From Azospirillaceae bacterium (GTDB lineage: Bacteria > Pseudomonadota > Alphaproteobacteria > Azospirillales > Azospirillaceae), in NCBI GenBank assembly GCA_028281465.1, contig JANQJV010000382.1:1-51043 (forward strand): a stretch of DNA of 51,043 bases, in the 5' to 3' direction. Shown piece by piece: positions 1,106 through 30,207 of the stretch. The notes under the pieces were generated by a model. It ran no database searches. It saw nothing but the letters and a program-made list of their open reading frames with translations, and was not told where the DNA came from. The first letter of the stretch is position 1; each line of letters begins with the position of its first letter. The translations under genes were made by a program, and so were the position numbers.

Positions 1106-1798
1106 ATGACGGACTTAGCGACTATTCATTATCCGATGGAGCGCTCGACTGCTGTTAGATCGGGCGTTCCAGCCACCTGTTCGCAGTCCTGTATTGCTCG
1201 TCGCCGTTTTCTGGCGACTGGGTTACTATGCTTTTTCTCTTATGGATGTTCATGGCGAGGCAATCAAACTTGGTCAGAGATCAATGCTATCCAAGCTCCG
1301 AGAATAGCCCGCGCGCACAACGAGTTAGGGGCCATATCGTTGGTTCGATCCCTGTGGTCGTCTGCCGAGCTCGATTTTCGGTCAAATCCGTTCGCCCACA
1401 TTGAGCATCGGCTTTCCCCGACGACTAGAGCAAGAATGTCGGACACTCTTTACTCAATTCACAATGACGTTCTCAGAACTAATAGACCAAAGCTCGGTAT
1501 CTATGCAGTCGTCCCTCCGACCTATAGAGATCACAGTACAGTATTACACTACAAGGTTTTTGACCCCTCCGCAATCGTAGTTGCTAGCGGGCTTCTCAAT
1601 TTCACACCACAGTTCTTTGATGATTACTATTTTGTCACAGTTGATCAAATAAGCACTGTTGATGACTGCGGCTTTGCTAAGACTTTTTTTGCACCTTACT
1701 ATAGCGTAGGAATCGAGCCTATCGAGGGTTATTATTATAATATCTGGGATACTACAGTTGTAAACGATAGGTGGTATATGAGTCGCTCAGAGACATAA
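1106..1798 (+). CDS. Exported protein with Tat-like/lipoprotein signal, 230 aa
   Basis: The ATG at 1106 follows GGGAGG at good spacing. Around residues 32-48 there is an Arg-rich, Tat-like stretch (RRRFLATG) followed by a hydrophobic segment ending FSYGC, which could be a lipobox, so the product may be an exported lipoprotein. The C-terminal half has a block with VFDPSA, a strand region, then DDYYFVTVDQ. The same block recurs in the next two genes, so the three are paralogues. Codon use is AT-rich compared with the rest of the window, which suggests horizontal transfer. I do not recognise the family and assign no function. Confidence 0.65.
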   Translation: MTDLATIHYPMERSTAVRSGVPATCSQSCIARRRFLATGLLCFFSYGCSWRGNQTWSEINAIQAPRIARAHNELGAISLVRSLWSSAELDFRSNPFAHIEHRLSPTTRARMSDTLYSIHNDVLRTNRPKLGIYAVVPPTYRDHSTVLHYKVFDPSAIVVASGLLNFTPQFFDDYYFVTVDQISTVDDCGFAKTFFAPYYSVGIEPIEGYYYNIWDTTVVNDRWYMSRSET

Positions 1799-1848
1799 TA
1801 TGCTATTTTCCCAGCATTTCCCATTATCACTCGAGAGCTTTGTACTCT

Positions 1849-1890
1849 CAGTTCGATGCTGGCATGCACCAGTTCGATGCTGGCATGCAC
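1849..1890. repeat. Perfect 21-bp tandem duplication
   Basis: Positions 1849-1869 (CAGTTCGATGCTGGCATGCAC, described here only as a 21-base unit beginning CAGTTCGATG) are repeated exactly at 1870-1890. The repeat lies in the intergenic space between the first two exported paralogues. Each unit contains the palindrome GCATGC. It could be a replication-slippage product or a doubled protein-binding site; nothing in the sequence decides. Confidence 0.85.
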
Positions 1891-1964
1891 AGAGACGACC
1901 TAGTCTTGTGCATTGCCAATCAGTTACGACAATACCACATCGAATGATCTAATGGAGGATCAAC

Positions 1965-2588
1965 GTGCTGGCAAAGATATTTGATCCTGAAGGCCGTCCA
2001 GTTACAAATTGCCCATTCATACCAGACTCTGGTGGCTCATTTTCCGGAGTAGGACGCCGAACGTTTCTTAAAAGTACGGTCGCTGGTGCGTTTATTGGCG
2101 GGCCGGTTAGCTTCGACTACGGCCAGCGGCCTGCGTCGCCCGTGGCGTTCCAATCTATAATAGTTAGAGGGATTGCTTCACTGGTGCGCGGTCTATGGAA
2201 AGGGGCCAAGTTTGCTGCGACAACTGGCAGTGCCGCGTTGATAAGTAGTGAGTTAGGTCCTTCTGAGGTAACGCAAATTGATAATACTGTCAACACGGTC
2301 TACAATAACCATTTTGACAATCGCCGAAATCTCGTTGGCCTGAGCGTGTTAGTACTTCCAGAGCGTAATTATGTGACAAATTTCCGGTTTCGTGTTTTTG
2401 ATCCTTCTGCTGCTGAAGTAAAAAATGGAACTGTCGCATTTCGGCCGCCATATCGGCGTGAATATTTTGTACTGAGTTTAGAAGATCCAAGAACCGACAT
2501 CTACCTACCGAGGTATGAGTTGTCGACACGCCCCGAAGCTGGAGACTACTTCCATGTTTGGGATTCGACCGGCGTTCAGCTCAGCTAG
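1965..2588 (+). CDS. Tat-exported paralogue, 207 aa
   Basis: The start is a GTG at 1965 preceded by GGAGG at 1954-1958. Residues around 30-50 form a good twin-arginine signal (GRRTFLKSTVAGAFIGG), preceded by an unusually long N-region. The C-terminal region has FRVFDPSAAEVKNG, then EYFVLSLEDP and DYFHVWDST; these match the same blocks in the gene upstream (VFDPSA..., DYYFVTVDQ, YYYNIWDTT). Export through Tat would imply folding or cofactor loading in the cytoplasm. It sits 19 bases before the third paralogue, so the two are probably co-transcribed. Function not recognised. Confidence 0.65.
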   Translation: MLAKIFDPEGRPVTNCPFIPDSGGSFSGVGRRTFLKSTVAGAFIGGPVSFDYGQRPASPVAFQSIIVRGIASLVRGLWKGAKFAATTGSAALISSELGPSEVTQIDNTVNTVYNNHFDNRRNLVGLSVLVLPERNYVTNFRFRVFDPSAAEVKNGTVAFRPPYRREYFVLSLEDPRTDIYLPRYELSTRPEAGDYFHVWDSTGVQLS

Positions 2589-2607
2589 GGATGGAGTAGA
2601 ATAGGCC

Positions 2608-3195
2608 ATGCTTTCAAATCTGGCAGCGATGAGTACGAACCGCACACGCGCCTTGGCCTTGCTTATGATTTCCGTGAGCTTAATGCTGTCCGTTCGCGAT
2701 TCGGCAGCACAGGATCGGATGCTCCAAGAATGCGGAACCGGTCTTGGAAAGGTGCTCCTACTTCCGCTCTACGAGTTGGAGAGTCCGTTTGCTCGAGGCA
2801 GTAGAGTCGATAACTGGATCGACAGGTGTCCTCCAAGATTCGACAAAAGCAATGTCATCAGGACAGTAGAGCATATTCTCAAGACGAAACTGGACTCCCC
2901 GCCATTGGGGTTACTGGTTGTCGTACCACCCGGTGAAGGAAAAGTTGAGACTGATATTGAACTGGAGTTTTTCTCTAGAACTGGCACTCAACTCGGCACA
3001 ACGGTTATTCCTTTTGACGCTCCAAGTCGTCAAGATTTTTACGCTGTAACGGTTGATGACCCATCGACACAGTCATCTTCATCACCTTTTGTTCGTAAGC
3101 CTACCGATCAAATCGCACTGATAGCCGCGACAGCGCTCTCGCCAAGTTATCAGATGTATCGAGACTGGATTCTAGTTGTACAGCGTAGGTTCTAG
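2608..3195 (+). CDS. Sec-exported paralogue, 195 aa
   Basis: Third member of the trio. The N-terminus carries a Sec-type signal (basic MSTNRTR then ALALLMISVSLML and a probable cleavage site near SAAQD), unlike the Tat-like signals of its two neighbours. The distal block (IELEFFSRTGTQLGTT, then DFYAVTVDDPST) aligns with the VFDPSA/DYYFVTVDQ block of the other two. Two or three Cys residues in the mature part could form disulphides. The start could also be the internal ATG at 2629. Function unknown; probably cooperates with or substitutes for the other two outside the cytoplasm (inference). Confidence 0.6.
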   Translation: MLSNLAAMSTNRTRALALLMISVSLMLSVRDSAAQDRMLQECGTGLGKVLLLPLYELESPFARGSRVDNWIDRCPPRFDKSNVIRTVEHILKTKLDSPPLGLLVVVPPGEGKVETDIELEFFSRTGTQLGTTVIPFDAPSRQDFYAVTVDDPSTQSSSSPFVRKPTDQIALIAATALSPSYQMYRDWILVVQRRF

Positions 3196-3235: not shown

Positions 3236-3900
3236 TCAAACCTCGATCGACTTGGCGAGATCGAGACCCTGGCGCTGGCCGACGCCGAGATAGGCGGCGG
3301 TGCTAGAAATGCTCTTGTGCCCTAGTAGTTGCTGGCAGGCGGTCACATTCAGGGTTGCAGCGTAGATCGCGGCCGACTTGGTGCGGCGCATCGAATGGGT
3401 GCTGTAGCGCCGCGGATCAAGGCGGGCATAGGCGGCCCGTTGCTTCACCAGGTGGGCGTACTGCCAGCGACTGAGCGGTCGGCCGCTGTTTTTGCTGCGA
3501 TTGCCGATGCCAGTGAATAGAAAATCGCCCGGCTTCTTGCCGCTCGCCGCAATCCACGCAGCCAGGGCGGCGCAGCTTTCCGTCCCGACGGCGACGACAA
3601 TGCCGGCCTGCGTCTTCTTTTGCCAGAGAGTGAACTCTTCGATCACCGCGCCGGTATGGTCTGTCACGTCCTCGACCCGCAGCCACAGAATATCCGAGGC
3701 GCACAGCATCACATCGACGCCCAGGTTGGACAATGCCAGGTCTCGCAGATTGCCCTCGGCGCGAGCAGCGACCGCACCACGCGGGCCTGTTCGCGCGTGA
3801 AAGGGGCCCACTGACCGACCGCCTTTCCTTTGTTCCAGGGTCCAGTTTTTATCTCCGTTTTCTTGCCTTGCTCATAAAAGCGAACATAACAGTCAAGCTT
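3236..3900 (-). pseudogene. Tyrosine recombinase, frameshifted and with a substituted catalytic Arg
   Basis: The C-terminal catalytic domain is clear: THSMRRTKSAA carries the His-x-x-Arg box, LLGHKS the second His, and TAAYLGV the nucleophilic Tyr. The region where this integrase family normally has KLRGCD reads MLCASD, so the first catalytic Arg appears to be Cys, explainable by a single C-to-T change. The N-terminal part (NKGKAVGQWAPFTREQARVV) lies in another frame upstream of about 3768, which shows a frameshift, and no start codon is apparent in that frame. I conclude the gene is inactive. It lies just beyond the exported trio and may be the relic of the integrase that brought the island. 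Confidence 0.75.
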
Positions 3901-5048: not shown

Positions 5049-5081
5049 GACCGCCGATCTTCGAGTGGGTCCTGAGGCTGC

Positions 5082-6278
5082 TTACGTTGCGTTTTGAAGC
5101 AACCCTTCCTGCTGATTGTAACTCAATGGCTTCAGACTTTCTATGCTCATGTAGCGTCTAGCGACGGCCCATTCATCATTTTGCTCGAGCATTAGTGCCC
5201 CTACTAGGCGTACAACCGCCTCGTTATTTGGGAATATCCCAACAACGTTTGCACGCCTCTTAATTTCCTTGTTGAGTCGTTCCAGAGGATTAGTTGACGC
5301 TATCTGGTTGCAGTGTTCAGGCGGGAAAGTCATGTAGACGAGTACATCGTCTCGGCTTTTGTCCATCATGGCAGTGAGTTTTGGGCAGCTCTGATGCAGG
5401 CGGTCTGCCACCTGGTTCCACTGCTGTCTGGCGGCGTCCACCGTATCCTGAGCGAAGATGGTTTTGAGCAACGCGGCGACAGCGGGACGCTGTTTGTTGG
5501 GTACGTGGGCGAGTGCGTTGCGCATCCAGTGCACCCTGCAACGCTGGAGCGACGCATGGAAGACCTTTGCGGCAGCAGCGCGCAGGCCCTTGTGGTCATC
5601 GGCAATGACGAGCTTAACGCCGCGCAGACCACGATCGGCCAAGGATCACAAGAAACTCTTCCAAAAGACTTCCGCTTCCGATGGTCCGGTGGCAATCCCC
5701 AGAACTTCTCTCCGACCGTCGCTGTTGACGCCAACTGCGACTATCGCTGCCGTTGCGACGATCCTCCCCGAGTCGCGTGTTTTGATGTCCGTCGCATCAA
5801 ACCAGACATACGGCCATGTCCCTTCGATAGGCCGGTTCAGAAAGGCGTTGACCCGTTCGTCGATTTCTCCGACCAGACGGGAGACTTGGCTCTTGGAGAG
5901 TCCGGAAGCTCCCATGGCTTGTACGAGATCGTCGACCGATCGTGTCGAAACACCCTGAACGTACGCTTTCTGGATGACAGCCGTTAAGGCTTTTTCGTCG
6001 GTTCTCCGCGGATCCAGGAAGCACGGGAAGTACGACCCCTGCCGGAGTTTTGGGATTGCGAGATCAATCTCTCCGGCCCGCGTGTCCCACCTGCGGTGTC
6101 GATAGCCGTTTCGCTGATTGATCCGTTCGGCGCTACGGGTGCCACTCGGTGCACCTGTACGTGCGGTGACTTCAATGTCCATCACACGGTCGGCCGCAAA
6201 CGCCAGCATCTCTCGTACCAGGTCGGTGTCGGCGCCCTTTTCAACCAGTTCCAAGAGCTTCAGTCTGTCATCGGTCAT
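5082..6278 (-). pseudogene. IS256-family (mutator) transposase with one in-frame stop
   Basis: The upstream half (start ATG 6278) runs to EVFWKSFL and stops at a TGA at 5646-5648. The same frame continues directly with SLADRGLRGVKLVIADDHKG and on to a normal C-terminus. The family usually reads FL-R-SLADRG, so a CGA-to-TGA change explains the stop. The expected family features are present: [12 protein letters not shown] with the first Asp, VIADDHKGL with the second, and the C-terminal part with NPLERLNKEIKRR carrying the Glu. Total length, about 398 codons, is normal. The stop falls between catalytic residues, so a truncated product would be inactive unless read through. Confidence 0.9.
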
Positions 6279-6529: not shown

Positions 6530-6760
6530 TCACTTCTGCGGCTGTTCGCTGGCTTGGGGCGCACTGCGCCCGGCAATACGATCACGGCGCACTAAACGGC
6601 CCCGTTTCAAATCTTCTGCCGTCAATTCGGGCGCAAGGTCGGGGTCTTCCGCGATCTGGCGGCGGATGTCGTCATCCGTCAGGCGGGCTTGAAGCTCATG
6701 ATCGATCTTGCCGGGATTTCGGGCAATCTCTTCACGGGTCATTCTGACGATAGTAGGCAT
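6530..6760 (-). CDS. BrnA-like antitoxin, 76 aa
   Basis: Starts at ATG 6758-6760, which overlaps the end of the brnT frame, and encodes MPTIVRMTREEIARNPGK and a very acidic/basic helical protein with DDDIRRQIAEDPD. This position and overlap, and the opening motif TREEI...GKID, fit an antitoxin of a BrnT-type pair, but the ribbon-helix-helix C-terminus usual for BrnA is not evident, so the DNA-binding part may be missing or of another class. It would neutralise the BrnT ribonuclease. Ends 76 bases from an IS end. Confidence 0.6.
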   Translation of the reverse strand: MPTIVRMTREEIARNPGKIDHELQARLTDDDIRRQIAEDPDLAPELTAEDLKRGRLVRRDRIAGRSAPQASEQPQK

Positions 6761-7003
6761 CGATCTCTCTCCGGGTTGCCGGTCGTGCCGAGATGATCCG
6801 GCGCATGTGCCCACGCTCAGTATACACCACAACATGAATTTTGTCACCGATAGGACCAAGGCGATATATCTGTCTTCATCATAATCAAAACGGTCATCGA
6901 GATTTTCTTTATATGGCCCATCAAAAATCAGCGTTGCGGTCTTAAAATCGATGCCGCGCCGCTTCAGGTTGCGAAGGCTTTTTTCTTCGTCCCATTCGAA
7001 CAT
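6732..7003 (-). pseudogene. brnT: BrnT-family ribonuclease toxin, frameshifted
   Basis: The start MFEWDEEKSLRNLKRRGIDF is typical of BrnT. After RYIAL the frame goes wrong. One base further on, the sequence continues as GPIGDKIHVVVYTERGHMRR, then IISARPATRREIDAYYRQ and a stop at 6732-6734, which is the normal BrnT C-terminus with the catalytic region HMRRIISARxA. A single missing G in a G run near 6853-6858 explains this. The unshifted reading frame instead fuses the N-terminal half of the toxin to the antitoxin sequence, giving a chimeric 157-residue ORF. The toxin should be inactive unless frameshifting restores it. Confidence 0.85.
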
Positions 7004-7867: not shown

Positions 7868-9955
7868 CTACTTCTCTTTCATCCTGATGACCACATCGGT
7901 TTCGCCGGCGGCCAAGCGGGCCGAGTGGAAACCCACGCAGCCGTCTTCCGGATAGTCTTGGCTCAAGGCCCGGAACGCGGTTTTGGCCGCATCCAAGTCA
8001 CCGGCGGCAAAGTGGTCGTAGGCGGTGCGGTAGCGATCCAGAAACCCTTCATCGAACCGGTTGGGCGGGAGCGGTTCGAGCACCTGCAGCGGCGTGGTTT
8101 TGCCCTTGAGCACCACTTCGCCGACGAGGCGCGCACGTGCATCCGGCACCCTGGTCGCGGTGGCGGCGGTCATGGCGACCAGCGTGCCGAAATACTTGTT
8201 GAGGCCCTCGACGCGCGCGGCGATGTTCACCGCGTCGCCGATGGCGGTGTATTCGACCCGGTCGAGCGACCCGAAATTGCCGACATTGACCTCGCCCGTA
8301 TGCACGCCGACCCGGGTGATATCGAAAGGCAGGCCGCGCGCGCATTCCCGCTCACTGAAAGTCCGACAGCGCTCGGCTAGTTCGAGTGCGCAGGCAAGGG
8401 CCCGGCGGGCATGGTCCGGCTGCGCCCGAGGGGCGCCGAAAATGGCAAACATGCCGTCGCCGGCGAATTGGATGATGGTGCCACCATGGTGGAACACCCC
8501 ATCGATCAACACTTGACGATAGCGGTTCAAGACCTCCGACAAGGTGACAGCATCCAGGGATTCCGAGAGGGAGGTGAACCCTGCCACATCGGTGAACAAG
8601 AGCGACAGCTCGCGTCGTTCTGCCTCGATGGACAGGCGGGAAGGGTCGTTGATCAACTCATCGAGAAGTTCGGCCGAGATGTAGCGGGAGAACGCAGTCT
8701 GGATGAAGCGCTTTTGCACGCGCTCCTCGCGCCCGGTGAGGAAATCGGCCGTGCCGGTGGCCAGCAGGAAGGCCATGGTCGGCGCAGCCAGCGGCAGCAG
8801 CGGACCACCGAGTTCGAACAGTTTAAAGCCGCATAGCCAAAAAACGGCCAAGGGCAACAGGAGTGCCGCCAAACGTGTCAGGAGCGGCATGGTCCAGCTT
8901 CCGATCAGCAGGCCCAGACCGGCCATGACGGCGACGGTCAAGCCATCGCCCCAAGGGCCAACAGCGGCCCCTTGGCGGCCTTCCAAGAGTTGGGCGATGG
9001 CGTGGCCGTGTACGACGACACCGGGCATATAGCCGGTCTTGTCGTTGTCGACGACGGCAAATGGCGTCCGGTGCCGGTCAACCAAGGTGAGATCGGCACC
9101 GATCAGAACGACCTTGTCCTTGATCCAGGACTCCGGCAGGAACGGCACCGCATGCGCCGGGTAAGCAGCGAAAGGTTGGGTGTCCGCACCCGGCGAGCCA
9201 CGGAAGGCGATCGCAACCGGTTCCCGCGGTGCCGTGTGGCCAAGCCTTTCTACCATTCGCCCGGCCACACCCGGGATAAACGGTCCTGTGTCGATGGCGC
9301 GCCCAGGGTAAATGGCGCGCACGGTTCCGCCCGCCGTGTCTTTGATCATATTGGCGAAGCCACGCAGTTCCGGCGGGACGAAAGTATCCAGGTACGCCTT
9401 CTGGCTCGGCGTCAGGCCGGCATCGGCGCCAGCATAGCTGATGACCAACGGCACCGACAGGTTGTGCAGCACGGATGCCAGGCGCACGTCCTTGTCCTGT
9501 TCCGTCGGCTGGTCAAACAGAAGATCGACCAGGATCGCCCGAGCTCCCTTGGCTGCCAAGCTTTCGAGAACCGTGGCCAGGAACGCCCGGTCGACCGGCG
9601 ACCTGTATGGGAATTGCTCGAGTGTTTCTTCGGTTATCGCAGCGACGACGATGTCGGGATGCTGCGGTTCGTACGGCAACAGAGTGGCAACGCGCACGTC
9701 TGCGGTCCATTGCTCAGCGGTGTGCAACACCGGCACGAAATGCAACGCCGTGACCACCGTCGCCGTGATGGCGAACAGAGCTGCAAGTTTGAGCCAGATC
9801 AGCGGTGTCTGCTGCGGGTCGATGACCGACCGGCGCTCCCTGTCGGGACCGCCAGCGACGACGGGTTGGGGCTCCGGCACGGGCGGGCTCCTGGTGTGCA
9901 AAGGGCTGGACCGGTCGGGATGACCGACAATCATACCGCCATAGCGGTCGGGCAT
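7868..9955 (-). CDS. CHASE2-domain class III adenylate/guanylate cyclase, 695 aa
   Basis: Membrane-bound cyclase predicted to convert a nucleoside triphosphate to a cyclic nucleotide. After an N-terminal membrane segment near residues 53-75 comes an extracytoplasmic CHASE2 sensor domain (about 80-330), then three closely spaced membrane helices (about 335-410), then the catalytic domain: LFTDVAGF and FAGDGMFAIF carry the two metal-binding Asp, and NIAAR the Asn/Arg pair. The residue that is usually the base-reading Lys appears to be Gln (TIIQFAGD), a variant known in some bacterial cyclases, so substrate preference is open. A short TPR-like tail follows. Two in-frame ATGs (9955, 9934) each follow a repeated GCGGT; the start is uncertain. 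The gene lies 38 bases downstream of the phytochrome kinase, so the two are probably one operon. Confidence 0.88.
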   Translation of the reverse strand: MPDRYGGMIVGHPDRSSPLHTRSPPVPEPQPVVAGGPDRERRSVIDPQQTPLIWLKLAALFAITATVVTALHFVPVLHTAEQWTADVRVATLLPYEPQHPDIVVAAITEETLEQFPYRSPVDRAFLATVLESLAAKGARAILVDLLFDQPTEQDKDVRLASVLHNLSVPLVISYAGADAGLTPSQKAYLDTFVPPELRGFANMIKDTAGGTVRAIYPGRAIDTGPFIPGVAGRMVERLGHTAPREPVAIAFRGSPGADTQPFAAYPAHAVPFLPESWIKDKVVLIGADLTLVDRHRTPFAVVDNDKTGYMPGVVVHGHAIAQLLEGRQGAAVGPWGDGLTVAVMAGLGLLIGSWTMPLLTRLAALLLPLAVFWLCGFKLFELGGPLLPLAAPTMAFLLATGTADFLTGREERVQKRFIQTAFSRYISAELLDELINDPSRLSIEAERRELSLLFTDVAGFTSLSESLDAVTLSEVLNRYRQVLIDGVFHHGGTIIQFAGDGMFAIFGAPRAQPDHARRALACALELAERCRTFSERECARGLPFDITRVGVHTGEVNVGNFGSLDRVEYTAIGDAVNIAARVEGLNKYFGTLVAMTAATATRVPDARARLVGEVVLKGKTTPLQVLEPLPPNRFDEGFLDRYRTAYDHFAAGDLDAAKTAFRALSQDYPEDGCVGFHSARLAAGETDVVIRMKEK

Positions 9956-13987: not shown

Positions 13988-14336
13988 GACCCACATCCCA
14001 TGGTTTCCCGGTACTGGGCCTGCTTGCGGACCGAGACCGGGGACCGTGGGGTCCGATCCACCCGGGCCGGCGGTCTGTAGACATGATCCACGAGAAATTT
14101 ATTAAAAACTATGCCTTCAATTCTTTGAAAACGGCACCTTGGGGCATCTTCCTTAAGTGACATCAAGGGGAACATGCTTTGATTTTGTGGTGCACGGAGA
14201 TAGTCTACACCATAAAGCTGGCCAAGCGCTGCCGGATCGAAATCAAGACGTCCGGACGTCGTGTGTCTGTGCCGTTTCTCGTTTCCTTCAGGTTTACCAT
14301 GGTCCCGCGGTGGGACCACCGCATTCGGAGACCTCC

Positions 14337-16097
14337 ATGCCGCGCACACGCCCGCAGCCGACCTGCCTCGACCAGGCTTTGGCCCATATTCGGCGCCCGC
14401 TGTTGGGCGTGGCGTTGTTCAGCGGCCTGATCAATCTGCTCATGCTGTCGACCCCGATCTACATGATGCAGGTGTATGACCGAGTGCTGTCGAGCGGACA
14501 CCAGGAGACACTGCTCTATCTCACGATCATCGTCGGCGTGGCTTTGGCCGTGCTGGCGCTCTTGGACAGCATGCGTGCCTGGGTGCTGTCGCGGGCCGGG
14601 GCCTGGTTGGTTGCCGGTCTGAACGAGCGAGTCACTGCCGGCAGTATCCTGGCGCGGTTGAAAGGGGTGCCAACTGGCTCGCAGCCACAGCGCGACCTAC
14701 GCCAGATCCAGAGCTTTCTTGGCGGTCAGGGCCTCACGCCCCTATTCGATCTGCCATGGATTCCAGTGTTCGTCGCCCTGTTGTGGCTGTTGCATCCCTG
14801 GTTCGGTCTGCTCGCCTTGATCGTGGGGATCAGCCTGTTCTGTCTGGGTGTGCTGAACGAGGTGATCACACGGTCCCCATTGAAGCGGGCCGGGGCCTGC
14901 CAGGTCGCCGGATACGAGCATCTGGAGGCATTGGCGCGCAACGCCGAAGCGATCCAGGCCATGGGTATGATGCGGGCTTTGACCCGGCGTTGGGCCACCC
15001 AGGATGCGGAGGCCACGGCCTGGACCGAACAAGCCACAGAGCGCGGTGCCCTGCTCCAAGGGATTTCCAAGTTTTGCCGTTTGGCGGCCCAGGTTGGTGT
15101 GCTCGGCCTCGGAGCCTTGCTGGTGCTGGACGGACAGCTTTCCGCCGGCACCATGATCGCCGCGTCGATTCTGCTCGGCCGGGCCCTTGCCCCCGTGGAG
15201 CAGACGATCGGGGCCTGGAAACAATGGGTTGCCACCCACTCCGCCTACGACCGTGTGCAAAGCCTGCTCCGCGCTGTGGATCCGAATCCCGACGCGATGG
15301 CGCTGCCGGCCCCGACCGGACAGCTCACAGTCGAGGCTGTGGCGTATCAGCCGCGCCCGGACCGACCGCCCATACTCAAGGGCATTGGGTTCAAGGCAGC
15401 ATCGGGTGAAATGGTCGGATTGATCGGTCCATCCGGATCCGGCAAGAGCACGTTGTGCCAATTGCTGGTCGGCTTGTTCCCGCCTTCTGCCGGGCATGTC
15501 CGCTTGGATGGAGCTGACCTGCATCGCCGAAACCGTGAAGAGATCGGCCCATTCATTGGATATATCCCTCAGGACGTGGAGCTCTTCCCCGGCAGCATCG
15601 CCGAAAACATCGCGCGCATGGCAGCGGACCCGGATGCCGAGGACGTGGTGGCCGCCGCCCGCCTGGCCGGCGTGCACGAGCTGATCTTGCAGCAGCCCAA
15701 AGGCTATGATACCGAGCTCGGCGAACGCGGCCAGGGCCTCTCCGCCGGTCAGCGACAACGGGTTGCCCTGGCCCGAGCCTTGTACCGCCGGCCAACCTTG
15801 CTCGTGTTGGACGAGCCCAACGCGAACCTTGACGCGGCCGGCGACCAGGCCCTGCAGCAAGCCTTGCAGCAGATGAAGGAGACCGGCACCACCATTGTGA
15901 TGGTGGCACATCGGCTACCGGACCTCAAACTGGCCGACACGGTGTTGGTGTTGCGCGACGGTACCCAGCAGGCGTTCGGCCCGCGCGACCAGGTGCTGCG
16001 GCCGCCGAGTTCGGCCAAGGCAGCAGCGCCTGTGCGCCCGCTGTTCCAGAAACCCGAGACGGCGCCCGCAGCCGTGTCTCTGGCGGCCTGGAGCTGA
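14337..16097 (+). CDS. Type I secretion ABC transporter (PrtD/HlyB-like), 586 aa
   Basis: Fused membrane and ATPase protein that powers export of proteins straight to the outside through a membrane fusion protein and an outer-membrane channel. Membrane helices span roughly residues 20-310 (for example VALFSGLINLLML); the nucleotide-binding domain follows with Walker A GPSGSGKS, signature LSAGQRQR and Walker B LLVLDEP, followed by the H-loop AHRLP. It lacks the N-terminal C39-like domain of HlyB, which places it with PrtD-type exporters of RTX proteases, lipases and similar proteins. ATG 14337 is preceded by GGAG; upstream in-frame codons look non-coding. The stop lies four bases before the next gene. 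Confidence 0.93.
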   Translation: MPRTRPQPTCLDQALAHIRRPLLGVALFSGLINLLMLSTPIYMMQVYDRVLSSGHQETLLYLTIIVGVALAVLALLDSMRAWVLSRAGAWLVAGLNERVTAGSILARLKGVPTGSQPQRDLRQIQSFLGGQGLTPLFDLPWIPVFVALLWLLHPWFGLLALIVGISLFCLGVLNEVITRSPLKRAGACQVAGYEHLEALARNAEAIQAMGMMRALTRRWATQDAEATAWTEQATERGALLQGISKFCRLAAQVGVLGLGALLVLDGQLSAGTMIAASILLGRALAPVEQTIGAWKQWVATHSAYDRVQSLLRAVDPNPDAMALPAPTGQLTVEAVAYQPRPDRPPILKGIGFKAASGEMVGLIGPSGSGKSTLCQLLVGLFPPSAGHVRLDGADLHRRNREEIGPFIGYIPQDVELFPGSIAENIARMAADPDAEDVVAAARLAGVHELILQQPKGYDTELGERGQGLSAGQRQRVALARALYRRPTLLVLDEPNANLDAAGDQALQQALQQMKETGTTIVMVAHRLPDLKLADTVLVLRDGTQQAFGPRDQVLRPPSSAKAAAPVRPLFQKPETAPAAVSLAAWS

Positions 16098-16101
16098 TAG
16101 G

Positions 16102-17436
16102 ATGATGGCCGTGGGAACCGCTTCCGCCGAAGGTCTGGCACGCAAGACGCGTCTGCCAGCGCTGGTGAGTTTGGTTATCTGCTTGGTGTTCTTCGGAGTG
16201 TTCGGAAGTTGGGCCGCCATGGCACCGTTGGCCGGCGGTGCCTTGGCGCCTGGCGTGATCAGTCCGGTCGGCAGCCGGCGCATCGTGCAGCACCTGGAAG
16301 GCGGCATCATCGAAGAGCTGCTGGTGCGCGACGGCGATCCGGTGATTGTCGGCACACCGCTTGTCGTTCTGGCCAGGACTCAGGCACTAGCCAGCCGTAA
16401 CATCTATCAGGAGCGCAGGCGTAGCCTGACCGCGACCATCGCCCGCCTGAAGGCCGAACAGCACGGCGATTGGGAGATCACCTTTCCACCCTGGCTGCTG
16501 GCGACAGCCGATCAGCCCGAAGTGGCCGAGGTGCTGGACGGCCAACGCCATCTGTTCGCCACGCGGCGCGAACAGATGGAGAGCCGGGTTGCCATCCTGC
16601 GCCTGCGCATTGCCCAGTTGCGCCGGCAGATCGACGGGTTGACGGCGCGCATCGCCAGCGAGACACGCCAGATCGCCCTGATCGACGAGGAGATCGCCGA
16701 TGTCGCCTCCTTGGTCGACAAGGGCCTGGGGCGCAAGCCGCGCCTGCTCGCCCTGCAGCGCGACCAGGCGGAGATCGCGGGCAGTCGCGCCGAGAACCAG
16801 GCCGACGTGGCGCGGGCCGAGCAAGCGATCGGCGAGACCGAGCTGGAGATTCTGGACCTGGATGCCAACCGGCAGGCCGAGATCGCCGACGCGCTGTTCG
16901 AGGCGCAGAACCAGTTGACGGAGATTTCCGAGAGCACGGTCGCGGCGGAAGACGTCCTGCAGCGGACCACGGTGACGGCCCCGGTTGCCGGCGTGGTGGT
17001 GAACCGGCGCTTCAGCACCACGGGCGGTGTGATCGGGCCGGGCGATCCGATCCTCGACATCGTGCCGGCGGAAGACGACCTGATCATCGAGGCGCGTGTG
17101 GCACCGCTGGACATCGACCTTGTGCATCCGGGCCAGGTGGCCAAGGTGCATTTGTCGGCGTTCAACCAGCGTCTGCTGCCGCAGATCGAAGGCCGCGTCC
17201 GCTCGGTATCGGCGGACGCCATGCTGGATGAGACCACCAGCGAGCGCTACTTCAAGGCCGTGGTCGAGGTCGACCGCCTGCTTTTGGACATCATCGCGCG
17301 CAAACACGAGGTGTCGTTGGACCTCGCGCCCGGCATGCCGGCCGAAGTTCTGCTGGTTGCCCGCAGCCGCACGCTCGTTGAGTATCTCCTTGAGCCACTC
17401 GCGGACTCTTTCCGCCGCAGCTTCCGCGAAGGGTGA
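16102..17436 (+). CDS. Type I secretion membrane fusion protein (HlyD/PrtE family), 444 aa
   Basis: Periplasmic adaptor joining the ABC exporter to a TolC-like channel. It has a short cytoplasmic N-terminus, one membrane helix near residues 15-37 (LVSLVICLVFFGVFGSWAAM), a biotinyl-lipoyl-like strand pair (GAL APGVISPVGSRR and GGVIGPGDPILDIVPAED), a long coiled-coil hairpin in between, rich in Arg, Glu and Gln, and a C-terminal beta barrel near SLDLAPGMPAEVLL. Length is normal for the family. ATG 16102 starts four bases after the transporter stop, with GGAG inside the previous gene. No outer-membrane channel or Gly/Asp-repeat substrate gene is next to it. Confidence 0.92.
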   Translation: MMAVGTASAEGLARKTRLPALVSLVICLVFFGVFGSWAAMAPLAGGALAPGVISPVGSRRIVQHLEGGIIEELLVRDGDPVIVGTPLVVLARTQALASRNIYQERRRSLTATIARLKAEQHGDWEITFPPWLLATADQPEVAEVLDGQRHLFATRREQMESRVAILRLRIAQLRRQIDGLTARIASETRQIALIDEEIADVASLVDKGLGRKPRLLALQRDQAEIAGSRAENQADVARAEQAIGETELEILDLDANRQAEIADALFEAQNQLTEISESTVAAEDVLQRTTVTAPVAGVVVNRRFSTTGGVIGPGDPILDIVPAEDDLIIEARVAPLDIDLVHPGQVAKVHLSAFNQRLLPQIEGRVRSVSADAMLDETTSERYFKAVVEVDRLLLDIIARKHEVSLDLAPGMPAEVLLVARSRTLVEYLLEPLADSFRRSFREG

Positions 17437-19819: not shown

Positions 19820-20023
19820 CTTCCATCTCCGTCGAACCCGGCCGCAGCGGGCCAAATGTCGTCAAAGCTCTGAAGATGAATGCTGGATGGATCTGGCGTC
19901 GCGGCCTTGGCGCTGGACACACTTGATGCGGCGCGTGTCCTCGTCAACGTCAGAGGTCGGCTGGTCTCATCCCGCATGGCCTGCGGTATCCCGCACGGCT
20001 GGCATTCTGGGGAGGCGGTAAGC

Positions 20024-21916
20024 ATGGCGCAAACGGGGGATATCGTGACCCTGGACTCACGTCGCCAGTACCAATTGCTTGGCGGACCGGGTGAAAAGCC
20101 AAACCCGGCCGAAGGCACGTTCGGTCTGGTGTACGCGGCTCTACCGCTATCGGCTTCAAAAGATGCCGAGACGCCGGTCGCGTTGAAGCTCGTCAACCGT
20201 TCGGAAATGCGCAAGCACGCCGACCTGTGGCGGGATGAGGCCCGGGCTCAAGAGTTGTACCGGGGTGTAATGCAGCGGGAAGGCCAGATCCTGTCGGCGG
20301 TTGCCAAACGGTGGTCAAATCCCCACGACGTCAATATCGTCCGCTTGGTTGACCGGGGCACCGTCACCGCACCGGCCGGCAAGGATGCGGGGTTTCCAGC
20401 CCTCGCGATGGAGCTGTGCGCATCATCGCTTGAAGAGGCCATAGTGTGCCGTGATCCCGATCGTGCGGGAGGGGATCTCGGGAGCGCCGGGGCACTGTGG
20501 CAGCATCTCGCAAGTGTCGATGGTCTTCTGCACCTGGCCCACTCGATCCTGGTTGCCCTCCAAGCCCTGTCGTCGCTGCCCCAAGACACCAGTGTCCGCG
20601 TGGCGCACCGGGACTTGAAACCAGGCAACATCCTTGTCAAGAACATCAACGACGGCAGGCGTCCAACCTATCTGCTCTCGGACCTGGGCAGCATCAAGAC
20701 ATTTGCCGCCCCCACTGGATCCGTCGGGAACTTCACCCAATCCTACGCCCCACCGGAAGTCCGACAAGCCCATAGGCGCCGGGGACCGAAGGGCACGACG
20801 GCGCAGATCGATCACTCCCGCGTCGATATCTACGCTTTGGCGGTGATCCTGTTCGAATGCGTGACCCGGTATCTGCCGCTGTACCATCAGGAGGATATTT
20901 CTGAGACGGCAGCGATTTTGACCGCGCGCGAGCTGTCGCTGCTTCGCGACGGTCTGGTACGGCTACCAGACACCCCGGCCGGTCCGACACGGCGGCCAGC
21001 TCCGAACCAGATGGCCGTTCGCGACGGCCTCCGGGCATTCATTCTGAAGTGCCTCTCGATTTCGCCGGATCAGCGTCCGACACTGTTGGGGGCCCTCCAG
21101 CATGTGAAAGCGCTGCAGCACCAGATTGGTCTCGCCACCGTCGCACGGCCGACCGTAATTCCGCTTCGGGCCGGCACCCCCACCATCGTGGCCGAAACCG
21201 TGTCGGTGCCTCCGGTGCGTCCGGTGACGCCGGCGAAACCAGGGCCAGTCCGGCGAACCGGCCGGGTCATAGCGGCCGCCCTACTGGCCGGCTGTCTTGC
21301 CGCCGCCATGCTTGCTCAAGAGCTTTGGCCCATGGAGGTTGCCATCCAGGGGATGCGACACTGCGCGACGGATGGCTACGGAGGCAGCGCCTGGATTGAC
21401 GGCACCTTGCGGCTCTCCGTCACCATCCGGCAGCCGCTGTGGCCCACCGGCGACCACGGCATGGCATTGCACCCATTGGCGGTTCGGATCACCGGGAACG
21501 GTGCGCGGCCGAGCTACCAATTGGCCTTGCCAGAAAGCGGTGGACCGGCATGCGCCCGCGCGCCGGTGGGCGAGGACGGTCGTTGGTGTCCGGCGTTTCA
21601 CGACAGGAGACCGGCGTCCGCCGGGGGCAAGGAATTGGTCGCCGTGGTCATCCGCCGCGGTACCCCCGTGGACGGCACTCGGGTCGCCACCATGCTCAAC
21701 GACGCCCTCTCCGGCGCGTCATCTATCGACCGTCCCCTTGATCCACCGGCGCTGGAAGCGCTTCTGGCTTCCGTCGGCCACCGTGTGATCGCGGTGCCGG
21801 CGACGGTGCCCACCCGGCCGCAAAACTGCCCGACGCAGCAGCCCGATTTGGCCGCCACGTTTTCGATGGCCGCGGATCCCACCCCCGGCACCCGGCGTCC
21901 CGCATGGACCAAATAG
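20024..21916 (+). CDS. Transmembrane Ser/Thr protein kinase, 630 aa
   Basis: Hanks-type kinase. The Gly-rich loop is GGPGEKPNPAEGTFGLVYA, longer than usual; Lys55 lies in VALK, the catalytic loop is HRDLKPGN (Asp197), and the magnesium site is DLG (Asp220) instead of DFG. The APPE motif follows at about 242-245. The kinase domain ends near residue 375, then a Pro-rich linker, one membrane helix (about 416-437) and a 190-residue C-terminal domain that should lie in the periplasm and contains four or more Cys. It has no PASTA repeats. ATG 20024 follows GGGGAGG and is preferred over the ORF start 144 bases earlier. First gene of a run with two FHA-like proteins and a PP2C phosphatase. Confidence 0.93.
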   Translation: MAQTGDIVTLDSRRQYQLLGGPGEKPNPAEGTFGLVYAALPLSASKDAETPVALKLVNRSEMRKHADLWRDEARAQELYRGVMQREGQILSAVAKRWSNPHDVNIVRLVDRGTVTAPAGKDAGFPALAMELCASSLEEAIVCRDPDRAGGDLGSAGALWQHLASVDGLLHLAHSILVALQALSSLPQDTSVRVAHRDLKPGNILVKNINDGRRPTYLLSDLGSIKTFAAPTGSVGNFTQSYAPPEVRQAHRRRGPKGTTAQIDHSRVDIYALAVILFECVTRYLPLYHQEDISETAAILTARELSLLRDGLVRLPDTPAGPTRRPAPNQMAVRDGLRAFILKCLSISPDQRPTLLGALQHVKALQHQIGLATVARPTVIPLRAGTPTIVAETVSVPPVRPVTPAKPGPVRRTGRVIAAALLAGCLAAAMLAQELWPMEVAIQGMRHCATDGYGGSAWIDGTLRLSVTIRQPLWPTGDHGMALHPLAVRITGNGARPSYQLALPESGGPACARAPVGEDGRWCPAFHDRRPASAGGKELVAVVIRRGTPVDGTRVATMLNDALSGASSIDRPLDPPALEALLASVGHRVIAVPATVPTRPQNCPTQQPDLAATFSMAADPTPGTRRPAWTK

Positions 21917-21978
21917 CCGGCCCGGTGCGTACCGGCCGCCAACCCATCGACCAATCAGACACAACGAAGGGTCTTATC

Positions 21979-23940
21979 ATGTTGCCGACATTCACCAATG
22001 TCTTCGCGCGCCGCAGGCCCAGAGTCACCCTGCCGGCCGATCTGGACGAAGCGCCGCGCAATGTTCACCGCAAGGTGCTTCGCATGGTGGATTATCGCCC
22101 CGGGTTCGAGGACGCTCTGTTCGACAAACTGCCGCGGTTCGGCGGCACGCGGGACACCATCATCGACGACCAGGGCCGATCGAACCACCGATTGGGTCAC
22201 GCCTTGGACGAATGTCGTCATCCTGCATTGCAGACGGACCCGAAATCCGGCCGCTCCGGCAATAATCCGACGGTATTTAACGATGTACTGCTGCTTCTGC
22301 CCCGCGAGGTCGTGCGCAGCAACCACATCAACGGCGGCGGTGAGAGCACCAACGCGTTGTGCTGCCGGCTCGCCGCCTTGCATAAGGATTCATTCGGCCG
22401 GGAGCTTTGGCAAGCCAATCGATCGGTGACCTACTCTGTCGCCGCCCACGACGGTCCAATGGATATGGTGGTTGCCCTGTTCGGACGGCCAGTCTTCCTG
22501 CCGGGACCGGACGACCGGCTCAGCGGTGAACTCTCGATCACCAAGCGCACCACGGACGGCCGCCTTGTTCCCGTGAAGATACCCACCGTGCACCGCTACG
22601 TCGGCGATCCGGGCAACCTCCGGCTGCACGAAGTCCCAGCCGGGGTTTATGACAACCAACGGTATTTGCTTCTGGGGTCAGATCCGACCACGGTTCCCAT
22701 GGCTTTGTTGCATTGGTTCAACAATCGAAAGGGCTACTTCCTGATCGATTTGGAGTGGGGCGAGGCATTCGCCGACGATCCCTGGGTCAGCGTGGTTGAG
22801 GACCCCATGGTGGTCGGCCCCGAGGCGGACCCGATGGCAGAGTCCCGGGCCACCTCTCCGCCGTACGGCCGACGTCAATGGCTTTGCGAAAGCCTGCAGC
22901 CGGTGGAATCGCCGTCCCAAAATCCGGAGCGGCTGATCGTGACCGTGGATCCGGTCGGTGAAGGCCGAGAGCCAGCGGAACGCCCCGGCGGTGTCGGCAC
23001 GGCGAGGCCGGCGCCGCGTGTCAAGCGTGATGCACCACGGGCCGAGACGCCGAAGCCAGACGTGGTCCAAGAGCCGTCTGCGCCGGCGGCATCGGTCGAG
23101 ACCGCCGAGGAGCCGGCAACAGCCGAGGACGGCTTACGCGCAACGGTGACCACTGAAGAGGCGCACAGGCCGACCCGGTTCAACGCCACCGTCATCACCA
23201 CGGATTACCGGCCGTTGCCCCAAATCGACCGTTACGCCCTGAAGATCGAAGGAATTGCATTGCCGAAGATCGGTGCCAGCCAGAACGCCGGGGTCAATCA
23301 GGAGTGGCTGCTGTGGCTGGATCGTGACGGCCACGTGATCACGCGTGCCCACAACGGCACCGCCGACACATCCCGATTGCGCCTGTCGGCCTCCACTGGG
23401 CGGGAGGGTCTGTTCTACTCAGCCCCGGGCGAACGCCATTGGGACTTGGTAACGCCAAACTGCACCGCTTTGCCTCTGGCCAATGGCGGCAAAGTCGCTC
23501 TCACCCCTGTGCCCAGGGGCGCTTCAGAACACTACTTCGGCATTCTGGCCCTGCCGACACCGATCATCCTGGAGCTGGCGGGAGATCGGGACATGATCTT
23601 GGGTCGGGCGGAGCCTGAAGACGCCAACCTCGCCGGGGCGTACGGCCCACGCAAGGTAGCGCCTGACCTGTTGACGCGTCCTGGCAGCTTGACCTGGCCC
23701 ACGCAACGCGACGCTGAGCTTGAACAGCTCAACCTGTCGCGCCGCCATTTGAACATGTTGATCCAAGACGGCTGCACTCTGGAGGTCGCCATGGAAAAAG
23801 GCAAGAGCCCAGCCTGGCGGGTTTCGCCGCAATTGCCGGACGGTGAGGCGCTGATGCCCGGTGATACGCGGACACTACTGCTCATGCTTGGCGAACGCTT
23901 GCTGGTGGGCTGTTACCTGCTCACCTTCGAGCGCCTCTGA
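21979..23940 (+). CDS. Large FHA-like protein 1, 653 aa
   Basis: Cytoplasmic protein without membrane segments. The C-terminal ~120 residues look like a forkhead-associated (phosphothreonine-binding) domain: ILGR (Gly-Arg 542-543) and LSRRH (Ser587, His590) are the conserved ligand-binding positions, although a ~40-residue insert separates them. The first ~290 residues form a domain I do not recognise, shared with the next gene (for example FNDVLLLLPREVV versus FNDVVVRIPRQQW). A Pro/Ala/Glu-rich linker joins the two. ATG 21979 follows GAAGGG; an ATG at 21904 overlapping the kinase stop is also open. Likely binds the kinase or its targets after phosphorylation (inference). Confidence 0.75.
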   Translation: MLPTFTNVFARRRPRVTLPADLDEAPRNVHRKVLRMVDYRPGFEDALFDKLPRFGGTRDTIIDDQGRSNHRLGHALDECRHPALQTDPKSGRSGNNPTVFNDVLLLLPREVVRSNHINGGGESTNALCCRLAALHKDSFGRELWQANRSVTYSVAAHDGPMDMVVALFGRPVFLPGPDDRLSGELSITKRTTDGRLVPVKIPTVHRYVGDPGNLRLHEVPAGVYDNQRYLLLGSDPTTVPMALLHWFNNRKGYFLIDLEWGEAFADDPWVSVVEDPMVVGPEADPMAESRATSPPYGRRQWLCESLQPVESPSQNPERLIVTVDPVGEGREPAERPGGVGTARPAPRVKRDAPRAETPKPDVVQEPSAPAASVETAEEPATAEDGLRATVTTEEAHRPTRFNATVITTDYRPLPQIDRYALKIEGIALPKIGASQNAGVNQEWLLWLDRDGHVITRAHNGTADTSRLRLSASTGREGLFYSAPGERHWDLVTPNCTALPLANGGKVALTPVPRGASEHYFGILALPTPIILELAGDRDMILGRAEPEDANLAGAYGPRKVAPDLLTRPGSLTWPTQRDAELEQLNLSRRHLNMLIQDGCTLEVAMEKGKSPAWRVSPQLPDGEALMPGDTRTLLLMLGERLLVGCYLLTFERL

Positions 23941-24063
23941 TCGGCGCAGCGGCCTGGCCGGCATCGGCGCCCAGGGGGCGCTGCGGCCGCCAGGTCCCGC
24001 TGCATCCCGCATCCACGACCCGAGAGGGCCACGCCCGGGCCCGACCGGATAGGGAGACAGAGC

Positions 24064-26283
24064 ATGGATAAGCCTCTCGACCGCCTGCGACCCGTCACGA
24101 ATGCGACGACCGTTGGCACCAGCCGCGTCCACACCCTTGTGCTGTCGGGTATGCCGTCGCAGTTCGAACCGGCGCTCGCGCACGCCGTCTGGGGGACGCG
24201 CGAAGGCCGGCGCGGCGCCTTCTCCGGCATCATGGATCAATATGGCCGAACCGACTTCCGCCTGTCGGACGCCTTGAAGCGCCATACCCATCCCACCCGA
24301 GGGTTTGACCGCAACACGGTGATCAAGTCTGGCGATCAGGTGTTCAACGATGTCGTTGTGCGCATTCCTCGGCAACAGTGGATCGACGGCCACCGTTTCT
24401 ATGCCGGCGCATGGACGTGGGCTCTCATCGAACAACTCGGACAGTGGCACACCGATGAATTCGGTGGCGCCTTATGGAAGAAGCGTAGTCCGCGCTATAT
24501 GGTGGTTCCCCACAGTGGCCCCGACGATGTGGTGGAGTTCTTTTGGGGCCGTACGGTCTCACTGCCCGGCGAAACGGAACAGCCAGCCGGCTGCATACGC
24601 CTGTTTCACGCCACCGAGAACGGCCACATCCGTCCGCTCACCTTACCGACTTGGCCACGCTATGTGGGGTCTTCCGAGACCCTGCGCCTGACGCAGGCGC
24701 CGGTGGCGATCTACGCGGACCAGCACTGCCTGCTGCTGGGTGGTGCGAGGTCGATCGCGCCCGTCGTCGTTGACGGCTGGCCATTTGCGTCGGCCACCAC
24801 CGCTTACATCGACTTCGACAATTCCTTCATCGGTGGCGAGGACGGTGGCGTTCGCTGCATACCGCTGGAGGAGGGACAGGACGACTCGGTGCTCGCCGAT
24901 CTGCGCAGTGCGTGCCCCGGCGCAGAGCAAATCTGGTGCTTCGAAGCGGCCACCAATGACGGCGGCCGCGACCCCGGCGACCGGCTGTTCGTGGTTCGTC
25001 AGCCCACGGCGGAGCTGGTCGAAGACGCCGAAGTGGCCACCAACGTGGCACAGCCAACGGACGAGGTGCCTTTGGCGGACACCGTCCTTGACCCTGTGGT
25101 TGCCGCAGCGGCCGACTTGCCGTCGGATGAGCCCGTGCATCCACCTCTTCGGGTCGAGGAGACCCCACCCGCATCGCCGGCGAAAACGGCGCCCAGTTCG
25201 CGGGTGGGCATGCGGGCCGTGCGATGCGAGACGGAGGACATTCCGTTGTTCCTCAAGCGTCCTCTGAACGCACAGCCGCAACCGTCGCGTCATCGAAGGG
25301 GATCTTGGAACCTCCTGACACGATTGCTGAAGCGGGACCGGAACACACCGTCCCGTGAGTCGACGCATGAGCCTCTTGATGCCGGATTTGGCAAGGAGGC
25401 GTCGCCCACGGGCCCCGAGTTCCGTGCGTTCCCGAAGGGGCCCATGCGCGCGCCGCGGGCGACAGTGGTCGGCACGCCCGTCCAGCCGACCCCGCACTCC
25501 GCCGCTGATGCCGAGCCCGCTGCTGGCCGGACCGAGGGAGGAAGCGTAGAGGTACCGTGCCTGCGGGTCACGCGGTTGGCCCTGCTGAAGGTCTTCGGCA
25601 GCAAAGCCGCCGACCGGGACCTGAATGCCTGGGTCTTGCCGGTCGACCGCTGGGGCTTGCCGGTCGCCGGAGCCAATGCCGCCGACGCTCCGGCCCCGGG
25701 TGTCACTCGGTTTGCAGCTCGGCGCAATGACGATCGCCTGTACGTCAGGGTGCCGGGGGCGACGAAATGGCGCGTGGCGCGGTTCCGGGATGGTTTCTGG
25801 CAGACCCCCCCCGACCTTGGCGAACCGGGTACAGCGATCGGTTTGGAGTCCGTGCCGGCAGCGCTGGCTGATCACGCCCACGCCTTCCTCAGACTCCCCG
25901 AACCGCAAACAATCGTCCTGCAGCAACCCTGCGAGAACGGCATGTTGGTCGGGCGGGACACCGGCGGTGGCGATGGCACCGAGCCGGGCCGATTGCAGCT
26001 TGGTCTATTGAGCCGGGTTGGCCAGTTGATGATCGATCATGCGAGCAACGCGACCTTGGAGCAGCTCAATCTGTCGCGCAACCATTGCCGTGTGGTGGTG
26101 CAAGGCCGGCAATTGACCGTTCGTATGGAAAACGGGCGGGCGCCGGTGTGGCGGCTTGATCCGGCTTTGCGTGTGACTGGGTGCTTGGGGGTAGGCGACC
26201 AGGAGGTGTTGCAGTTGGAGCCAGGAGAGTCGCTGTTGCTTGGCTGTTATGTCGTTCTGTTCGCCGTGATGCCACGCCCATGA
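24064..26283 (+). CDS. Large FHA-like protein 2, 739 aa
   Basis: Paralogue of the preceding gene, with the same order: an unrecognised N-terminal domain (about 1-300), a long low-complexity linker (about 310-500), a further shared domain, and a C-terminal FHA-like domain with MLVGRD (Gly630, Arg631) and LEQLNLSRNHCR (Ser671, His674). The segment ELEQLNLSRRH of protein 1 is almost identical, which supports recent duplication. ATG 24064 follows GGGAG. Its stop overlaps the phosphatase start (ATGA), so the two are translationally coupled. The insert between the GR and SRxH motifs is larger than in ordinary FHA domains. Confidence 0.75.
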   Translation: MDKPLDRLRPVTNATTVGTSRVHTLVLSGMPSQFEPALAHAVWGTREGRRGAFSGIMDQYGRTDFRLSDALKRHTHPTRGFDRNTVIKSGDQVFNDVVVRIPRQQWIDGHRFYAGAWTWALIEQLGQWHTDEFGGALWKKRSPRYMVVPHSGPDDVVEFFWGRTVSLPGETEQPAGCIRLFHATENGHIRPLTLPTWPRYVGSSETLRLTQAPVAIYADQHCLLLGGARSIAPVVVDGWPFASATTAYIDFDNSFIGGEDGGVRCIPLEEGQDDSVLADLRSACPGAEQIWCFEAATNDGGRDPGDRLFVVRQPTAELVEDAEVATNVAQPTDEVPLADTVLDPVVAAAADLPSDEPVHPPLRVEETPPASPAKTAPSSRVGMRAVRCETEDIPLFLKRPLNAQPQPSRHRRGSWNLLTRLLKRDRNTPSRESTHEPLDAGFGKEASPTGPEFRAFPKGPMRAPRATVVGTPVQPTPHSAADAEPAAGRTEGGSVEVPCLRVTRLALLKVFGSKAADRDLNAWVLPVDRWGLPVAGANAADAPAPGVTRFAARRNDDRLYVRVPGATKWRVARFRDGFWQTPPDLGEPGTAIGLESVPAALADHAHAFLRLPEPQTIVLQQPCENGMLVGRDTGGGDGTEPGRLQLGLLSRVGQLMIDHASNATLEQLNLSRNHCRVVVQGRQLTVRMENGRAPVWRLDPALRVTGCLGVGDQEVLQLEPGESLLLGCYVVLFAVMPRP

Positions 26284-27221
26284 GTATGGTGCATCGCTGG
26301 TGCCTGCCGGATCCCTTCCGCGGCACCGGCATCGCCGTTGCCGGCTACGCGGGCGGCCATGGTGGGTTTCAGGACAACTGGTTGGTGAATGTGGGCAGAG
26401 CTTCTGGAACGGGAGGATGCAGCCACCGCTTGATCGGCGGCCACCCGGTTTGCACGGCCGTGCCGGATTGGCCACGACACCGCGTCCGCGTCGCTGTTCT
26501 GGACGGGATGGGCGGTCAGTCGCTTGGCCGCTGCGCTGCCGAGACGGCGGCAGCGAGGCTGGCCACCCTGCCGCCGCTGGACTCGACGACAGTGCTGCGC
26601 AGCGCCGTGATCGAAGTCCACGCCACCTTGCAAACGTGGCTTGGTGGGCCGGGACGCGGCGGTACCACCCTGGTGCTGGTCGAACTGGACCTTGCAACGA
26701 ACACGGCCATGCTTGTCCATGTGGGCGACAGCCGTGCCTATTGCCATTCGCCCGGGGCCGTTGGAGTCTGCACCGAGACGGTGCAAGGCCTCGACAACTG
26801 GACGGCGCTCACCCATGATCACAGGGTGGCGGAGTTCGCTTGGCGGGATGGTGAATTGGATGATGGGGCGTACAACACGATTCTGAGGACGCCGACACAA
26901 CGCCTGGCACAAGCCGTCGGTTTCGGCTCGATGGGCGCATTTTCTCGTCGGGAGCGCCGGATCAACCCCGCCCTACGCATTGACGCCCCGCCCTTGCCCC
27001 ACGCCGACATTGCCGAATGGCGGCTAGGCGCCGGCGATCGCCTTGTTCTGGCCAGCGACGGTGTTTTCACCGACCCAGACCTGGTGCAGCCCTTGTTCAA
27101 TACCGGCTGCGCCCAGGCCGCAGCGGAGACCTTGGCTGCACGGACCGGTCCGGCCAATAACCACCTTTCCGACGATGCCACCATGCTTACCGTGGCGCTG
27201 GACGGTCCCACAGTCGCCTGA
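26280..27221 (+). CDS. PP2C-family Ser/Thr protein phosphatase, 313 aa
   Basis: Metal-dependent phosphatase expected to reverse the neighbouring kinase. The family motifs are visible in order: FQDNW with a metal-binding Asp, AVLDGMGG, GGTTLVLV, VGDSRAY, LTHDH, LVLASDGVF and SDDATML (usually DNxT). All metal-ligand Asp residues appear to be kept. There is no membrane segment. It starts in the stop codon of FHA-like protein 2 (ATGA). The kinase-FHA-FHA-phosphatase order strongly suggests a closed phospho-signalling unit. Confidence 0.93.
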   Translation: MSMVHRWCLPDPFRGTGIAVAGYAGGHGGFQDNWLVNVGRASGTGGCSHRLIGGHPVCTAVPDWPRHRVRVAVLDGMGGQSLGRCAAETAAARLATLPPLDSTTVLRSAVIEVHATLQTWLGGPGRGGTTLVLVELDLATNTAMLVHVGDSRAYCHSPGAVGVCTETVQGLDNWTALTHDHRVAEFAWRDGELDDGAYNTILRTPTQRLAQAVGFGSMGAFSRRERRINPALRIDAPPLPHADIAEWRLGAGDRLVLASDGVFTDPDLVQPLFNTGCAQAAAETLAARTGPANNHLSDDATMLTVALDGPTVA

Positions 27222-29483: not shown

Positions 29484-29515
29484 CTGCAGACGGTCACCCA
29501 TTTGCCGGAGGATCA

Positions 29516-30175: not shown

Positions 30176-30207
30176 TCTGTCATTGACAAGAAATACGAGA
30201 AATCAAC

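Follow-up and report, generated by a model that had tools for sequence, protein, structure and literature searches.

Three adjacent genes, here termed P1, P2, and P3, can best be explained as an acquired tandem orphan family of small exported proteins, whose predicted routes are Tat, Tat, and Sec, respectively, and whose most distant copy, P3, has a different N-terminus; we would put the probability of this reading at roughly 55%. The genes lie head-to-tail on one strand of the window, i.e., the whole stretch of 51,043 nucleotides that was analyzed, and their ORFs occupy 1106-3195, exactly the span given in the preliminary description. A more specific version, which we hold only tentatively, is that they represent an undescribed exported family in which one tandem copy swapped its whole N-terminal part, thereby changing route, with a mature domain compatible with both.

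Gene organization, base composition, and neighborhood

P1 (1106-1798, forward strand; 230 aa) has a Tat-like signal, ARRRFL, at residues 31-36, followed by a possible weak lipobox ending in Cys48 and then the mature domain. P2 (1965-2588, forward strand; 207 aa), which begins with a GTG start codon, similarly has a Tat-like GRRTFL at residues 30-35 ahead of its mature domain, and P3 (2608-3195, forward strand; 195 aa) combines a Sec-like signal, with a cleavage-like site (SAA/Q) at residues 32-35, and a distant copy of the shared domain. The P1-P2 gap of 166 nt contains an exact 21-bp tandem duplication (1849-1890, forward strand; family D5 of the repeat scan). The P2-P3 gap is 19 nt, and these two genes are presumably co-transcribed. 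Promoter and terminator scans stayed near chance level, and neither tRNA nor Rfam matches were found across the window.

The description of the locus as a low-GC island is borne out by its composition: P1, P2, and P3 have GC contents of 46.6%, 49.2%, and 49.5%, respectively (i.e., 47-50%), against mostly 60-70% in the window, and their third-position GC of 43-48% compares with 77% in the cyclase gene at 7868-9955, the overall GC of which is 64%. Immediately to the right lies a tyrosine integrase remnant (3236-3811, reverse strand; PF00589, 5.7e-16), which was correctly recognized as dead from the outset: its match starts only at position 20 of the Pfam profile and covers positions 71-231 of the 301 in phrog_216, with coding-looking sequence upstream of it in another frame. 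Beyond it, an IS256/Mutator-type transposase (5082-6278, reverse strand), which at the DNA level is about 70% identical to IS256 transposases already annotated, is split by a stop into two same-frame ORFs, 5082-5642 and 5646-6278, which match positions 220-377 and 16-215 of PF00872, respectively. The truncated integrase and the interrupted transposase make the framing of the locus as an island plausible on its right side. On the left, the contig starts at window base 1 and thus cuts the flank of the trio; the ORFs at 163-489 and 506-892, which the preliminary description took to be truncated, have no Pfam or PHROGs family match, and a search of 128 genomes with a 100-residue piece of the latter retrieved nothing related from the 127 other than the window's own.

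On composition and neighbors alone, horizontal acquisition of the trio is likely. The same surroundings might also be taken to mean that the three ORFs are decaying passengers, i.e., leftovers amid dead mobile genes that have lost expression and function. The disrupted integrase and transposase would fit such decay, as would the nearly flat GC of P1 by codon position (0.472, 0.472, and 0.455), which provides thin backing for P1 as an active gene, and the absence of relatives in any collection or sample searched (see below). Against this, all three frames are open across 195-230 codons, for which the chance of being stop-free is 1e-5 to 8e-5 each; Shine-Dalgarno-like sequences stand at normal spacing 5' of the starts of P1 (GGGAGG) and P2 (GGAGG), with a weaker GGAG 5' of P3; and the signal motifs are intact. 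We accordingly regard decay as unlikely.

Several other features of the window were recorded independently of the trio. At 6530-7003 (reverse strand) lies an ORF whose first 55 residues match the BrnT toxin (PF04365, E 1.3e-10) and whose C-terminal part continues in frame; it gives the impression of a BrnT/antitoxin pair that has been altered or fused. A type I secretion pair at 14157-17436 (forward strand) comprises a PrtD-like ABC permease/ATPase (TIGR01842, 687.8 bits) and an HlyD adaptor (TIGR01843, 364.8 bits), both above the cut-off. Further along, a run of large ORFs at 19880-31656 (forward strand) includes one with a protein-kinase domain (PF00069), followed by four (21904-23940, 24064-26283, 27561-29483, and 30208-31656) with no Pfam match at 1e-5 and no NCBIfam match at 1e-3; this run could be an undescribed kinase-linked system.

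Homology within the trio

Sequence comparison identifies P1 and P2 as clear paralogs and P3 as a true but distant third member of the family. P1 and P2 align over 219 columns with 28% identity (BLASTP E 1e-20), i.e., nearly their full length including the Tat region, and the similarity is recovered in a whole-genome search at E 1.2e-14. P3 is reached in two-sequence BLASTP comparisons with P1 at E 1e-6 and with P2 at E 0.001, and in shuffle tests its scores against P1 and P2 correspond to z values of 10.4 and 8.3, with 0 of 2000 shuffles reaching either score. As single-sequence queries, P2 (E 0.35 in the genome) and P1 (E 0.015) retrieve it weakly. The preliminary description had proposed a profile search with the shared block, and such a profile, built from P1 and P2 without P3 and run against the whole 6.3-Mb genome of origin, recovers P3 at E 9.3e-5 over residues 86-155 (2863-3072, forward strand), so that profile similarity is indeed present. 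The block common to all three corresponds to residues 122-184 of P1 (1469-1657, forward strand), as aligned with P3, and to about residues 100-177 of P2 (2262-2495, forward strand).

The resemblance of P3 might instead be a chance likeness of beta strands in an unrelated exported protein. It spans just 63 residues with P1 and 54 with P2, at 26-32% identity; P3 is without most of the C-terminal Y-x-x-WD part, and the VFDPSA motif of P1 and P2 is replaced by FFSRTG at the aligned site. The earlier picture of three paralogs sharing a block of the VFDPSA/(D)YYFVTVDQ type thus stands as regards the paralogy of all three and fails as regards VFDPSA, which is confined to P1 and P2; the strand D-[YF]-Y-x-VTVD is common to P1 and P3. 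What speaks against a chance likeness is that the profile, beyond P1, P2, and P3 themselves, finds no match even at E <= 10 in the same genome, that one and the same stretch of P3 matches both P1 and P2, and that the genes are immediately adjacent. An unrelated P3 is hence very improbable in our view. At the DNA level, similarity at codon positions 1, 2, and 3 is 0.43-0.46, 0.55-0.61, and 0.25-0.28, respectively, with the first two exceeding the third in all three pairs, a comparison that is biased because the alignment was picked on protein similarity.

Export signals

The signals predicted for the trio agree with the Tat/Tat/Sec difference originally proposed, with twin-arginine motifs in P1 and P2 and a Sec-like signal in P3. 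The motifs of P1 and P2 occupy one aligned position, and each precedes a moderately hydrophobic stretch. Within the first 72 residues, the peak 13-residue hydropathy falls at the signal in both P1 (1.58) and P3 (2.58), and in P2 (1.41) at residue 60, beyond the signal. The P3 signal has a more hydrophobic stretch and small residues at -3/-1, with the arginine pair absent. A TatC protein is encoded in the genome (E 7.9e-70).

The twin arginines might nevertheless be fortuitous, with all three proteins using Sec or with P1 and P2 remaining unexported. Of the 325 ORFs in the window that are 60 aa or longer, 9 have Tat-like motifs, counting P1 and P2, and such motifs arise in about 0.5-1% of shuffles of the first 60 residues (208/20000 for P1 and 109/20000 for P2); the cleavage sites of both proteins are unclear, inspection of the P2 signal revealing no clear one; and an overlap between Sec and Tat signals is reported in the review PMC7317946. 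Each motif taken singly is therefore modest evidence. The stronger point is its retention across paralogs: RRxFL is kept at the same aligned place, with a mildly hydrophobic stretch after it, in proteins that are only 28% identical. P2 additionally has a sub-threshold match to the Tat-target model TIGR02811 (E 0.026). A fortuitous origin of the arginines thus appears improbable to us.

The suggestion that P1 might be a lipoprotein is weak. The classic lipobox has the form [LVI][ASTVI][GAS]C, and Cys48 of P1, in the context TGLLCFFSYGC, does not conform to it, fitting only a more permissive lipoprotein pattern. Among the other cysteines, P3 has Cys42 and Cys74, and mature P2 has none.

The preliminary description also spoke of a switch of export pathway. 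The type of signal in P3 does differ, but the word is partly misleading: P3 aligns with P1 and P2 only from residue 86-90 onward, whereas the P1-P2 alignment includes the Tat N-termini, and the N-terminal part of P3 is therefore a different one, not a version in which the signal has mutated. That this difference extends to the entire N-terminal part, beyond the signal, may be what is particular to this family.

Searches for relatives

None of the three proteins has a match in Pfam at E <= 10 (a scan in which the HMMER filters discard most weak matches), in NCBIfam above cut-off, in PHROGs, or in PADLOC. Searching the PDB by sequence produced no convincing hit, the best match being to the ribosomal protein eS7 (E 0.011), which we take as chance. 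No relatives were found in plasmids searched with P1, P2, and P3, in phages searched with P1 and P3, or in viral contigs. Among 82 genomes of the order, only the window's own genome matches, with the other 81 being empty, and it is likewise the only match in a class sample (385 genomes) and a phylum sample (398), these samples overlapping and not constituting a census. Another order (397 genomes) and a second phylum sample, consisting partly of the same genomes, were empty, but neither included a known-positive genome, so their emptiness shows little. With P1 alone, 56 of 194 genomes of relatives gave a match at E <= 1; we take these as noise, since they lie mostly in the signal region, with none below 0.006 outside the own genome.

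A scan of a contig collection with P2 as the sole query, an approach sensitive only to close relatives, yielded 12 loci, mostly of Mesorhizobium, that match residues 27-62 only, around PVSFDYGQ, itself one of the patterns by which these loci had been selected. The sequence GPVSFDYGQR of P2 (2098-2130) recurs exactly in one frame of a stretch that is identical across the 12 loci (L004-L015, near 5058-5090), and nucleotide searches with the PVSFDYGQ stretch pointed to no clear mobile-element source. Given this pattern-based selection, the exact recurrence is probably due to chance, and we read the loci as coincidental matches or as a short sequence unrelated to P2.

The trio might also be envisaged as an array of periplasmic immunity proteins directed against an interbacterial toxin, with duplicated variants being retained. 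Small, divergent tandem paralogs that are predicted to be exported and situated on a putative mobile island would suit such a role, and runs of immunity genes that are paralogs of one another have been seen before (PMC9484751). On the other side, no toxin, T6SS, or polymorphic-toxin gene lies alongside among the ORFs scanned, the left flank being cut by the contig end, and the lack of PADLOC, Pfam, or above-cut-off NCBIfam matches likewise disfavors it. We consider an immunity array quite improbable.

Structure models

The predicted models are of low confidence, with mean pLDDT values of 41.4 for P1 and 47.0 for mature P2, each from an input alignment of three sequences; in both, a helix precedes four to five strands. 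Models of this quality are too poor for a fold to be named, and we derive neither fold nor function from them. Foldseek searches of the PDB and viral libraries with the better model returned nothing at E <= 0.001 (best E >= 0.02), and the lack of a better structural match should not be taken to indicate a new fold. VIA-align gave a best Z of 4.9 for this low-confidence model, and its highest-ranking matches included immunoglobulin-like sandwiches. DUF1425 (PDB 3o0l; Z 4.5, rmsd 2.7 over 71 residues, where a Z under 8 may reflect a common arrangement only) resembles the model in being a small beta-rich domain, and DUF1425 proteins are exported lipoproteins. It differs in that P1, P2, and P3 match no Pfam model, even with the threshold relaxed to E 10, and the low confidence of the model makes this resemblance a lead only.

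Evolution, possible role, and comparison with known systems

The export, horizontal origin, topology, and role that we infer for the trio can be brought together in a single scenario. A mobile element, whose remains would be the truncated integrase and interrupted transposase alongside, probably brought the trio in. A duplication would have given rise to P1 and P2, both keeping the Tat signal, whereas P3 would be a copy at a greater distance, its N-terminus being unrelated and bearing the Sec signal. Judging from their signals, P1 and P2 would be exported folded through Tat and P3 unfolded through Sec; P1 is perhaps lipid-anchored, and a disulfide between Cys42 and Cys74 possibly closes P3. 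The working domain, as far as the models can guide us, is probably an N-terminal helix with four to five beta strands, destined for the periplasm. As the most likely role one might guess, with considerable reserve, at a binding or scaffolding function in the periplasm that is not enzymatic.

Taxon-restricted orphan genes that sit in mobile or AT-rich regions are a general notion, and a parallel might be struck with them in terms of low GC, dead mobile neighbors, and the absence of detected relatives. Those are single ORFs, whereas P1, P2, and P3 together form a family, and their export signals are intact. If one tandem copy did swap its whole N-terminal part, with a mature domain compatible with both routes, the trio would amount to a natural experiment that asks which of the two, signal or folded domain, makes a protein dependent on Tat. 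Should the predicted routes not be real, it would be one more orphan family among the many in acquired regions.

That the members of a family should differ in export route was initially held to be unusual, which is an overstatement in light of the amidases. In Escherichia coli, AmiA and AmiC are Tat substrates and AmiB uses Sec, i.e., the family is compatible with either route, and solute-binding proteins of Streptomyces are found as Tat substrates (both PMC7317946); among the amidase homologs of Pseudomonas aeruginosa, one has a Tat signal and one a Sec signal (PMC4899797). Thus, mixed routes inside one family are already known, and it is the P1-P3 family itself that seems undescribed. The likeness to E. 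coli AmiA, AmiB, and AmiC (PMC7317946) is that of three paralogs with two Tat and one Sec route, those of P1, P2, and P3 being predicted. The amidases, in contrast, are enzymes of known function, whereas P1, P2, and P3 match no Pfam family and have routes that are only predicted, and no homology between the two is claimed. Provided that the predicted routes hold, the trio would stand beside the amidases as a compact further case, with paralogs exported folded (Tat) and unfolded (Sec) in one tandem array in which the N-terminus has been exchanged.
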